Part shown: positions 6,305 to 9,965 of the stretch, one piece after another | Numbering within the stretch: position 1 is the first letter of the stretch | Layout of the letters: each line of letters starts with the position of its first letter | Source of the DNA: Phycisphaerales bacterium | Lineage (GTDB): Bacteria > Planctomycetota > Phycisphaerae > Sedimentisphaerales > UBA12454 | Direction: 5' to 3' | DNA length: 64,000 bases | NCBI GenBank assembly: GCA_003142595.1 | Contig: PLMU01000004.1 | Location: 62,001 to 126,000 of the forward strand | The notes under the pieces: model-generated | What the model was told of the DNA's origin: nothing | Database searches by the model: none | Seen by the model: the letters and a program-made list of their open reading frames with translations, nothing else | Translations under genes and position numbers: made by a program

Positions 6305-9019
6305 TTGATTTTCTCGAAACATATTTTAAATAATTACCTGCTTAAGCTTCTTTTGTTAAGCCTGTTAGCTTCAACAGTTTTTGCCTATTCCGGCGGCACA
6401 GGAACGGCAGAAAATCCGTACCAAATCGCAACCCCAAATGATCTGCTGGTACTGGCAGCCAATACGAACGATTACAGCAAAGCTTTCATTCTCGTAAACG
6501 ATATTAACCTGGCCGGATACACTTTTGATAAAGCCGTCATTGCACCGGACATAAGCTCTTCTGAGAATTTTCAGGGAACAAGCTTTAATGGAACGTTTGA
6601 CGGCAGCGGCCATTCAATCCTTAATCTGACAATCAATGCCGGCGAAACCGGCAACGACTATCTCGGTCTGTTTGGCCGGATTGACCAGGGCGGCGTAGTA
6701 AAAAATCTTGGCATTAAAGATGTAAACATTGTTGTCTTTATTGGGGGCAACGACGCTTATTTTGTCGGCGGACTCTGCGGAGACAGCGAACAATGCGATA
6801 TCAGCAACTGTTTCTCGACAGGTAAAGTAACTGGAATTTATGAAACCGGAGGACTTTGCGGAGGCAGCGATAATAGTAATATCAGCGATTGCTTCTCGAC
6901 TGCTGAAGTAACTGGAGTTTATGATACCGGCGGACTGTGTGGATACAATTTTGGTATCGGCAGCATCGCCAATTGTTATTCAACTGGTAATGTAGGCGGA
7001 GATAATTTTACCGGCGGGCTGTGCGGATACAATTTTGGCAGCATCACCAATTGTTATTCAACTGGCAATGTATACGGATATAATTCTACCGGTGGGCTGT
7101 GCGGAATCAATCTTGACGGCACTATCAGCGGTTGCTATTCGACAGGCTCGGTTGCCATAGGCCATCATACCGGCGGATTGTGTGGATACAATTATTATGG
7201 CAGCATTAGCAACTCCTATGCAGCAGGCCCGGTTACCGGAGATGCTTATACCGGCGGATTGTGCGGACGTAATTTTGGTTTCGGCAGCATCAAAGCCAGC
7301 ATCATCAATTGTTATTCAACAGGTAATGTAAGCGGAAGCGGATATTACTGTGGCGGACTGTGCGGAGAAAACGAAAGCAGCACTATCAGCAAATGCTATT
7401 CGACAGGTGCAGTCAGCGGGTCTCTTGTCGGCGGCTTTGTAGGAGACAGCAATAACAGCATTATCAATAATTCTTTTTGGGATGTTAATACTTCCAACCA
7501 GACATTCAGCCACGGCGGAACTGGCAAAACCACCGTTCAAATGAAAACACTTTCAACATTTACTTCGGCAGGCTGGGATTTTGTTGGTGAGACAGCCAAT
7601 GGCACAGACGATATATGGAATATTAATGAAGGCATCAGCTATCCCTACCTTGCTTGGCAGCCTCATGTCGCCGTTCCAAATGTCACAGGCATGACAGAAG
7701 CGGATGCCCTTACCGCAATTACAAATGCCGACCTTGTCGCAGGAACAATAACCGCCGAATACAGCCGCACAGTTCCTCTCGGAAATGTTATCCGGCAGAC
7801 CCCAGCCGCAGGCACTTCAGTGGCTGTAGGTTCAACAGTAAATATTGTTGTATCTTTGGGATTAAAATATAGTGGCGGGACCGGAACGCAAATAAACCCG
7901 TTTCTGATTGCAGCCGTCTCAGATTGGAACAGCTTAATGCGCACTTCTGAAGACTGGGATAAGTATTTTATTATGACCGCCGATATAGACCTGCAGGGCC
8001 TTTCACTAACGCCGGTTGGCAATTCCACTACTAAATTTATTGGTGTTTTTGATGGAAATAATCACATCATCAGAAATGTGGTTATGAATTTGCCTGGCGT
8101 CAGTGGTGTTGGTCTGTTCGGTTATATGGACCTCGGCGGCCAAATCCGCAATTTAGGCATAGTGGATGTTAACATAATTGGGTACAATAGTGTAGGCTCT
8201 CTGGTGGCATACAAAGGCGGCGGCAGTATCACCGATTGTTATTCAACCGGTGCTGTCAAAGGTTCTGGTGATGGAGTTGGCGGCCTGGTGGCAGTCAACT
8301 ACGGCAGTATCACCAATTGTTATTCGGCAGGTAAGGTCAGCGGTTCTTCGTATATCGGTGGGTTAGTATCAGACAACGAATACGGCGGCGCAATCACCAA
8401 TTGTTATTCGACGGCTGTTGTCAGCAGTTCTTCGTATTATGCAGGCGGGCTGGTGGGATACAACCGCACCGATGGCGCAACAATCGCCAATTGTTATTCA
8501 ACCGGCGCTGTCAGCTGTTCCCGTAATTATGTAGGCGGGCTGGTGGGATACAGCTGGTACGGCAATATCAGCAATTGCTATTCGACAGGTGCAGTCAGCG
8601 GCAACGTAGATGTCGGCGGGCTGGTGGGAGACAGCTGGTACGGCAGTATTGTCGGCAGTTTTTGGGATGTTAACTCTTCCGGCAGGTCAACAAGCGCCGG
8701 CGGAACTGGCAAAACCACCGCCCAAATGAAAACACTTACAACCTTCACATCGGCAGGCTGGGATTTTGATGTCGATTGGTTTATGCAACTCGATGAGTAT
8801 CCGATTTTGATCTGGCAGATTTCCCCTGTGGATATTTATACCGATGGCAAAAACAACTTCAGAGATTTTGCGGCCCTTGCGCGATACTGGATGAGAGATG
8901 ATTGCGCGACATATAACTATTACTGCGACGGAGCTGACTTGGACTCTAACGGCTCGGTAGATATCCACGACCTTAAAAAGTTTATATCCTATTGGCTCCA
9001 GTCAGGAATATACGAATAA
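6305..9019 (+). CDS. Secreted GLUG-repeat protein with internal PASTA domain and C-terminal dockerin-like domain
   Basis: 904 residues from a TTG; AGGAGG at 6291-6296 sits 8 bases upstream and fixes the start. Residues 1-27 are a signal peptide ending in VFA. Two homologous modules each begin with YSGGTGT (about 28 and 522), continue with an N-P-(Y/F)-x-I-A segment, and carry many GLUG repeats of about 25 residues (GGLCGYNFGSITNCYSTG in the first, GGLVGYNRTDGATIANCYSTG-like in the second). Each module ends in SFWDVN plus GGTGKTT. A PASTA-like domain (about 454-518, VPNVTGMTEADAL and IRQTPAAGTSV) joins them. Residues 840-904 hold two calcium-loop-like segments (D-G-K-N-N-F-RDFAALARYW and DLDSNGSVDIHDLKKFISYW), typical of planctomycete dockerin-like tails. 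Probably a surface or secreted adhesin-like protein, with the dockerin-like tail as attachment module. Cys appears in most first-module repeats but is largely replaced by Val in the second. Confidence 0.85.
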   Translation: MIFSKHILNNYLLKLLLLSLLASTVFAYSGGTGTAENPYQIATPNDLLVLAANTNDYSKAFILVNDINLAGYTFDKAVIAPDISSSENFQGTSFNGTFDGSGHSILNLTINAGETGNDYLGLFGRIDQGGVVKNLGIKDVNIVVFIGGNDAYFVGGLCGDSEQCDISNCFSTGKVTGIYETGGLCGGSDNSNISDCFSTAEVTGVYDTGGLCGYNFGIGSIANCYSTGNVGGDNFTGGLCGYNFGSITNCYSTGNVYGYNSTGGLCGINLDGTISGCYSTGSVAIGHHTGGLCGYNYYGSISNSYAAGPVTGDAYTGGLCGRNFGFGSIKASIINCYSTGNVSGSGYYCGGLCGENESSTISKCYSTGAVSGSLVGGFVGDSNNSIINNSFWDVNTSNQTFSHGGTGKTTVQMKTLSTFTSAGWDFVGETANGTDDIWNINEGISYPYLAWQPHVAVPNVTGMTEADALTAITNADLVAGTITAEYSRTVPLGNVIRQTPAAGTSVAVGSTVNIVVSLGLKYSGGTGTQINPFLIAAVSDWNSLMRTSEDWDKYFIMTADIDLQGLSLTPVGNSTTKFIGVFDGNNHIIRNVVMNLPGVSGVGLFGYMDLGGQIRNLGIVDVNIIGYNSVGSLVAYKGGGSITDCYSTGAVKGSGDGVGGLVAVNYGSITNCYSAGKVSGSSYIGGLVSDNEYGGAITNCYSTAVVSSSSYYAGGLVGYNRTDGATIANCYSTGAVSCSRNYVGGLVGYSWYGNISNCYSTGAVSGNVDVGGLVGDSWYGSIVGSFWDVNSSGRSTSAGGTGKTTAQMKTLTTFTSAGWDFDVDWFMQLDEYPILIWQISPVDIYTDGKNNFRDFAALARYWMRDDCATYNYYCDGADLDSNGSVDIHDLKKFISYWLQSGIYE

Positions 9020-9088: not shown

Positions 9089-9580
9089 TCAACCCTGCCG
9101 AAGTGTCGGCAGGGCTAACCCGTTTTCGTTATGATTTTGAATATATTTTATTTTTTGTTCAATTTCATTTTTACAGTAACAGAATCTTTTATCGAATCCT
9201 TTTGACCAGATTTTATTTTGTGATACATAATTGCGAAGTGCTGCTGTTGCCGAATATTTATATCGGTGGACTGCTTTTTCGATTGATTCTGCCGATACTT
9301 CTGCAAGTAGATGGATATGGTTGGTGCATACTGCGATAGCGTGGATTTTCTGATTTATCCTTTTTGCTTCTTGAAGGATTGCGATTTCTGCGATATTTCT
9401 TTGAAATGGAGTAAGTTTTATTATTTCTTGTTTGATGGCCGATAGATTTGATTGTTTAAGTTTTGGATCAGGGTCGAGGACTTGGCCGTCTTTAACATAT
9501 TTTCTTTCATCTCCTTGCAGCCAGCTTCCGAACGTTGTCCAAGTAACCATATATCCTATAAGTTTTTTGGAAGTCTCCAT
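9089..9580 (-). CDS. REP-associated tyrosine transposase (RAYT, IS200-like Y1 family)
   Basis: 163 residues from the ATG at 9580; an open frame reaches 9727, but the upstream part is REP DNA. The N-terminus GYMVTWTTFGSWLQGDER matches RAYT proteins of planctomycetes and proteobacteria. The HUH motif is NHIHLL with His88 and His90, and the catalytic tyrosine is Tyr146 (KYIQNH). Such enzymes nick single-stranded DNA at REP hairpins through a 5'-phosphotyrosine and are usually single-copy, domesticated relatives of IS200 transposases. REP hairpins sit on both sides (9093-9120 on the minus strand, 9632-9965 on the plus strand). The last eleven codons and the stop are built from the downstream REP. 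No good ribosome site is visible. Confidence 0.9.
   Translation of the reverse strand: METSKKLIGYMVTWTTFGSWLQGDERKYVKDGQVLDPDPKLKQSNLSAIKQEIIKLTPFQRNIAEIAILQEAKRINQKIHAIAVCTNHIHLLAEVSAESIEKAVHRYKYSATAALRNYVSQNKIWSKGFDKRFCYCKNEIEQKIKYIQNHNENGLALPTLRQG
9093..9120 (-). repeat. REP hairpin overlapping the 3' end of the RAYT gene
   Basis: CCCTGCCGA (9093-9101), 4-base loop, TCGGCAGGG (9106-9114), followed by CTAACC. Read on the minus strand it is GGTTAG followed by the hairpin, the same layout as the array units but in opposite orientation. Confidence 0.85.
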
Positions 9581-9631
9581 ATTTGAATAATAACTTTGAT
9601 TTATTATTGTGGCAATATTTTTTTTAATCGT

Positions 9632-9965
9632 GGTTAGCCCCATCATCACCATGATGGGGTTCGTTTTCGTCATCATCACTTTGGCAGGGTTCATTGTTGC
9701 GTGGTTCGTGGTTAGCCCCACCAACACCTTGGTGGGGTCGTCTCCGTTGTCGTCACCATGGCAGGGTCATAAAATTCAGTTAGCCCTGCCAACATTTTAA
9801 TCCCCGTAAGGGGACTTTGGCAGGGTATGTAATCGTGGTTAGCCCCATCATCACTATGATGGGGTTCGTTTAAGGTTAGCCCTGTCAACATTTTAATCCC
9901 CGTAAGGGGACTATGATGGGGTATAAAATCGTGGTTAGCCCCACCATCACTATGGTGGGGTTCGT
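9632..9965 (+). repeat. REP array: four simple hairpins, two nested hairpins, two half-units
   Basis: Each full unit starts GTTAG and forms a hairpin with 9-base arms. Simple units: arms 9638-9646/9651-9659 (CCCCATCAT), 9716-9724/9729-9737 (CCCCACCAA), 9843-9851/9856-9864 (CCCCATCAT) and 9939-9947/9952-9960 (CCCCACCAT), each with a CACC or CACT loop. Nested units: arms 9784-9792/9817-9825 (CCCTGCCAA) and one at about 9880-9921, both enclosing an inner CCCCGTAAGGGG hairpin. Half-units with only a right arm lie at about 9670-9690 and 9748-9767. Base changes in one arm are matched in the other in all full units except the one at 9880-9921. The conserved GTTAG foot corresponds to the GTAG/GGAG foot of classical REPs (established for RAYT systems). 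Confidence 0.9.

Follow-up and report, generated by a model that had tools for sequence, protein, structure and literature searches.

A REPtron-like locus with TTAG-footed hairpins in a Phycisphaerales genome

A locus in the window, by which we mean the whole 64,000-nucleotide stretch of Phycisphaerales DNA that was analysed, very probably encodes a REPtron-like system in which a Y1 HUH transposase of single-stranded DNA, present in one copy, is paired with a REP hairpin family of its own; these hairpins carry the foot TTAG, and the enzyme would cleave them. Among relatives, this tag changes in step with two residues of the enzyme, suggesting a clue to how such enzymes choose their hairpins.

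Transposase gene and hairpins at the locus

The gene and the REP units that surround it, in window coordinates, are as follows.

9089-9580, minus strand: Y1 HUH (RAYT-like) transposase gene, ATG at 9580, 163 aa
9092-9119, minus strand: 3' REP hairpin, foot GTTAG, stem CCCTGCCGA, loop CACT; also encodes the final codons of the gene
9633-9660, plus strand: 5' array REP hairpin, GTTAG CCCCATCAT CACC
9677-9691 (approximately), plus strand: half REP without foot, CACTTTGGCAGGGTT
9711-9738, plus strand: 5' array REP hairpin, GTTAG CCCCACCAA CACC
about 9755-9768, in the array: second half REP without foot, similar to the unit at 9677-9691
9779-9826, plus strand: long REP hairpin, foot and stem as in the array units, loop with a 20-nt insert, TTTTAATCCCCGTAAGGGGA, forming an inner hairpin
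9838-9865, plus strand: 5' array REP hairpin, GTTAG CCCCATCAT CACT
9875-9922, plus strand: second long REP hairpin, within a 90% tandem copy of 9779-9869; some mismatches in the stem, 20-nt loop insert
9934-9961, plus strand: 5' array REP hairpin, GTTAG CCCCACCAT CACT

The identification of the gene is based on its open reading frame, its Pfam match, an AlphaFold model searched with Foldseek, and conserved residues. A longer reading frame opens with a GTG at 9727 and runs through the hairpin array; this GTG lies inside the array and is an unlikely start. Reading of the sequence assigns the catalytic residues to H88-I-H90 and Y146, and an alignment of 63 relatives shows no variation at H88, W125 and Y146 and at least 90% conservation of H90; the HUH and tyrosine residues named in the original prediction are thus present and conserved in the family. 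The protein scores 25.5 bits against Pfam Y1_Tnp (cut-off 23) and, with this domain, an HUH motif and one catalytic tyrosine, has the features of an IS200/IS605-type domain. Its putative foot-reading segment is W125-SKGF-D130-K131-R132. No Y1_Tnp gene other than the window gene was found in the 2.28-Mb genome.

A search with the single window protein in phmmer returned no relative in the PDB, whereas the profile and the fold did; sequence similarity to E. coli TnpAREP was marginal (profile E 0.61). The AlphaFold model (pLDDT 87) had as its top Foldseek match 4er8, the E. coli TnpAREP with its REP hairpin (E 2.7e-6, 154 columns). In a second look with the aligner VIA, 4er8 reached Z 11.3 over 122 residues that include the tyrosine helix, while IS608 and ISDra2 gave Z 12-13 over about 105 residues, in alignments that mostly ended before this helix.

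Seven foot-bearing hairpins surround the gene: upstream of it are six plus-strand units, and one inverted, minus-strand unit lies at its 3' end, the layout that had been described at the outset. Each of the seven is preceded by GTTAG, and five consist of a perfect 9-bp stem with a 4-nt loop. Six of these hairpins, folded in their single-stranded form, were more stable than all of 200 shuffled sequences; the exception is the imperfect long unit at 9875 (z -1.4). Both long hairpins (9779 and 9875) belong to a 91-base tandem repeat. A search of the genome for the 20-base loop insert with its own hairpin (ATCCCCGTAAGGGGA) yielded no copies beyond the two array REPs that hold it, and the TTTTAATCCCCGTAAGGGGA insert was therefore dropped as a candidate for a second REP family or for a repeat of CRISPR type.

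The final codons of the transposase come from the 3' REP, and the REP-encoded tail that results, such as LALPTLRQG, resembles the tails SPQLYVGG and QLHVGG that follow some homologues (L075, L086, L036). Just downstream of the transposase, at 6305-9019, lies a gene for a repetitive protein of 904 aa that has GLUG-like repeats and ends in a dockerin-like segment. An empty site corresponding to the window locus was sought in relatives and none was found; a neighbouring gene for 307 aa is absent from most of them, and in G002 the surroundings of this neighbour gene are unrelated to the window locus.

The hairpin family across the genome

Copies in the genome were counted by pattern searches, with the reversed pattern as control. 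The pattern GTTAGCCCYRYCA...TGRYRGGGT matched 15 times and its reverse 0 times, and a mismatch-tolerant search added two copies, the 3' hairpin of the locus and one other. The resulting 17 family hairpins comprise the seven at the locus, eight intergenic ones, and two that lie in frame within genes. Further GTTAG hairpins, for which the original prediction had proposed to search, thus exist at ten places outside the locus, and as in a REPtron these dispersed copies are mainly intergenic, where intergenic means between mechanically called reading frames in DNA whose surroundings are mostly coding. All nine stem pairs are formed in the 12 distinct copies, and five pairs have changed on both sides, compensatory changes that accompany a fixed foot; sliding the partners against each other as a control destroyed this covariation.

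In this genome (G000), further hairpin families with TTAG and different stems were seen at C3:9237, C14:115555, C15:66328, C14:318265 and C16:274714, among others. One other TTAG stem type of the genome, CCCCTTGA-TTTA/TTCA, also flanks a transposase (L026) in G005, another species of the genus. No second transposase was found here, and these other TTAG hairpins look like orphans of a lost enzyme.

The two in-frame copies lie in genes that, from our own reading of the translated products, appear to be mfd, for the transcription-repair coupling factor (L001, C3:24987-25014), and mnmE (L002, C8:7252-7279). Orthologues of mfd within the family (L279-L288) carry at the same protein loop a similar REP, one of another type, a decayed one or none. 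Among mnmE orthologues (L266-L278), that of G003 has another REP type in the same loop and several have no REP. In some orthologues from the same family the hairpin is of the type seen here but its stem bases have changed. These differences between orthologous sites are direct evidence of gain, loss or replacement of hairpins: hairpins of this kind come and go within conserved genes.

This turnover bears on whether the enzyme has been domesticated by the host, so that it binds REPs merely to process or organise DNA and the hairpins are no longer moved. Retention of a single gene copy with intact catalytic residues would suit such a role; nevertheless, we consider it unlikely, since genomes of one family differ in whether the mfd and mnmE hairpins are present, absent or replaced, the locus holds a tandem array and other genomes lack the gene, all of which argues for ongoing turnover of the hairpins.

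We regard it as more unlikely still that the locus is an IS200/IS605 insertion sequence whose gene and end hairpins move as one, with the dispersed hairpins as relics of its ends. The window system shares with IS200/IS605 TnpA the Y1 fold, for which IS608 and ISDra2 are close structural matches, the HUH motif with one tyrosine, hairpin substrates and a guide tetranucleotide 5' of the stem, and its nearest homologue, in G004 of the same genus (79% DNA identity in the gene), sits in an unrelated neighbourhood. However, the end hairpins of IS200/IS605 elements lie on one strand, whereas those of the window gene are inverted with both feet toward the gene, so that a same-strand LE/RE pair is lacking; the genome has one gene copy; and where other genomes have several genes, these are strongly divergent, unlike recent copies. 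The dispersed hairpins, too, are units without a partner end that stand singly or else with a same-orientation hairpin in this genome, and dispersed inverted pairs, as in REPINs, were not found among them.

Foot and foot-reading segment in relatives

To the REPtron-like reading, the hairpins of other genomes add a definition of the foot. Homologues were drawn from 198 relatives and from GTDB contigs, and hairpins were located by their stems alone, blind to the foot. At 78 loci whose protein has the segment D-K-[RQ]-x-C, TTAG faces the gene in 86 of the 130 gene-nearest hairpins, against a background of 0.35% and with 52 different stems, so the foot does occur beside close homologues. The usual layout is hairpin-CTAA-gene-TTAG-hairpin, with feet toward the gene on both sides. 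The base before the foot varies among the 130 hairpins (G 41, T 55, C 15, A 19), and since the last four bases alone are constant across homologues, the foot is TTAG. The five-base GTTAG originally proposed as the foot holds for all full units at the locus and was rejected as the foot itself.

Hairpins of the form TTAG-CCCC, searched as TTAGCCCC-N11-15-GGGG in the 198 genomes, gave 3732 matches against 268 for the reversed pattern. At least eight matches were present in 49 of 55 genomes with a gene of the clade and in 28 of 143 without one (p 8e-20, a value that overstates the number of independent cases, since nested matches within a hairpin were counted and the genomes are relatives of one another). 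Among the 28 genomes with at least eight matches and no detected clade gene are G003 (37), G011 (317), G038 (74) and G165 (125). Their hairpins may be orphans of a lost enzyme, or may reflect an assembly gap, a missed gene or another enzyme. In a genome that has 317 matches, one TTAG hairpin adjoins L053, a class-3-like gene with an internal stop.

The inner sequence of the REPs, that is stem and loop, correlates with protein distance (Mantel rho 0.32, a value reached in none of 1000 permutations), a pattern that coevolution of enzyme and hairpin would predict. That the hairpins are host transcription terminators or RNA stability elements which adjoin a transposase by coincidence is highly improbable: their stems are GC-rich and intergenic and a loose terminator scan accepts two array units, but their constant part is a 5' foot and not a 3' T-run, the foot points to the gene from both sides, copies lie in frame within mfd and mnmE, and across genomes the type of hairpin follows the lineage of the transposase.

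The foot also varies together with the protein. Every foot ends in AG. At the 81 loci where the foot is clear, D130 goes with T as the second foot base (71 of 71) and S130 with A or G (10 of 10), and within the D130 proteins K131, and one V131, go with TTAG and R131 with ATAG. Residue 130 changed twice on the tree, each time with a matching change of the foot, and ATAG, a change of base 1, represents one change. With only two plus one changes on the tree, shared descent alone could produce the association, and a sign test has too few independent changes to reach significance.

The E. coli stretch W94-R104 aligns without gaps to W125-Y135 of the window protein, and within it Q95, E100, H101 and R104 are reported to contact GTAG (PMC6006769, PMC8266576). 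A difference in this foot-reading segment is the probable reason why the foot reads TTAG and not GTAG. The Marinomonas system REPtron Mb uses foot bases A3G4 in choosing its CT cleavage site (PMC8266576), and in light of this role the fixed AG of the feet fits a fixed cleavage at CT. Based on these findings, we tentatively propose a code, for which we would not yet claim even chances, in the clade and its class 3 sisters: residues 130-131 would set foot bases 1-2 (DK for TTAG, DR for ATAG, S for xAAG or CGAG) and the fixed AG would select the CT cleavage site, and REP families with different stems could thereby arise, spread and outlive their enzymes.

The analysis thus establishes how the locus is built, that its hairpins are dispersed and turn over at orthologous sites, that foot and stem/loop type are linked to protein lineage, and which fold the protein is predicted to have; binding, strand choice, cleavage and mobilisation are inferred from relatives. 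Most likely, the enzyme would bind the TTAG hairpin on one strand of single-stranded DNA, reading the TTAG just 5' of the stem as well as features of stem and loop. Through Y146 it would then cut the strand that bears the foot, close to the hairpin, and rejoin nearby DNA; the retention of A3G4 in the foot makes CT the probable cleavage site. Such cutting and rejoining could spread or copy hairpins, remove them or duplicate them in tandem. How RAYT enzymes distinguish their own hairpins has been worked out in detail in just a few proteobacterial systems, all of them GTAG-footed; the clade offers a large natural series of other feet with small changes in the foot-reading segment, which makes foot specificity and the choice of cleavage site testable by swaps of one or two residues.

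Placement among described families

The system apparently represents an undescribed sister clade of class 3; it is organised like a REPtron and lacks the class 2 and class 3 signatures that were tested. The original prediction of a RAYT in a REPtron-like locus with a variant foot is borne out by the single gene, the inverted hairpins, the dispersed copies and the TnpAREP-like fold. It does not hold in so far as the protein is no canonical RAYT, with 30.3 bits against NCBIfam REP_Tyr_transpos, below the cut-off of 80 that also marks class 2. Class 2 enzymes have GT[AG]G feet, W-Q or W-E, and YIxxNP (PMC6006769); the window system has TTAG, W125-S126 where class 2 has W-Q (W-E in some subclasses), and YIQNHN.

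The window system resembles that of E. coli TnpAREP/RAYT (class 2.2) in several respects: both have a Y1 HUH fold whose catalytic helix aligns in cis, a single gene with inverted hairpins at its flanks, further hairpins that are dispersed and mostly intergenic, and beside the stem a tetranucleotide foot ending in AG. It differs in having TTAG and not GTAG, perfect stems without a bulge, W-S/T and not W-Q, and YIQNHN and not YIYINP. The nearest described relatives of the window protein are the class 3 TnpAY1 proteins, and not the enzymes with GTAG or GGAG feet that had served as background to the prediction.

Class 3 is rare, occurs in Planctomycetes, Acidobacteria and Proteobacteria, and has W[TA], YVxxEQ and the foot CnGA (PMC6006769). 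The clade resembles it in its planctomycete hosts, in W-T in most members, and in a REPtron-like arrangement with atypical hairpins, and shares with the class-3-like proteins of our alignment an extended N-terminal TWTTYGTWL block. In contrast to class 3, its foot is TTAG and not CnGA, Y-x3-H (Y146-x3-H150 in the window protein) replaces Y-x4-Q, and its segment reads G-F/Y-D-K-R-F/Y-C instead of G-S-T-R-Y-L. On the tree, distant homologues with G-S-T-R-Y-L and Y-x4-Q split from the TTAG clade with full support, and the visible feet of these class-3-like homologues are CCGAG, ACGAG, CAAG or GAAG/AAAG; CCGAG and ACGAG were seen beside no other homologues.

The GTAG- and CGTC-tagged REPs of Di Nocera et al. 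2013 (PMC3733652) are likewise palindromes with an unpaired tag, some of them within repair genes; the tags TTAG and GTTAG do not occur in the text of that paper. A literature search, with subscription journals mostly outside its range, found no pairing of a RAYT with TTAG or of a REP-associated transposase with Phycisphaerae. Judged by record titles, the hosts of the clade are almost wholly MAGs of Phycisphaerae and Sedimentisphaerales, and nearly all relatives come from MAGs.
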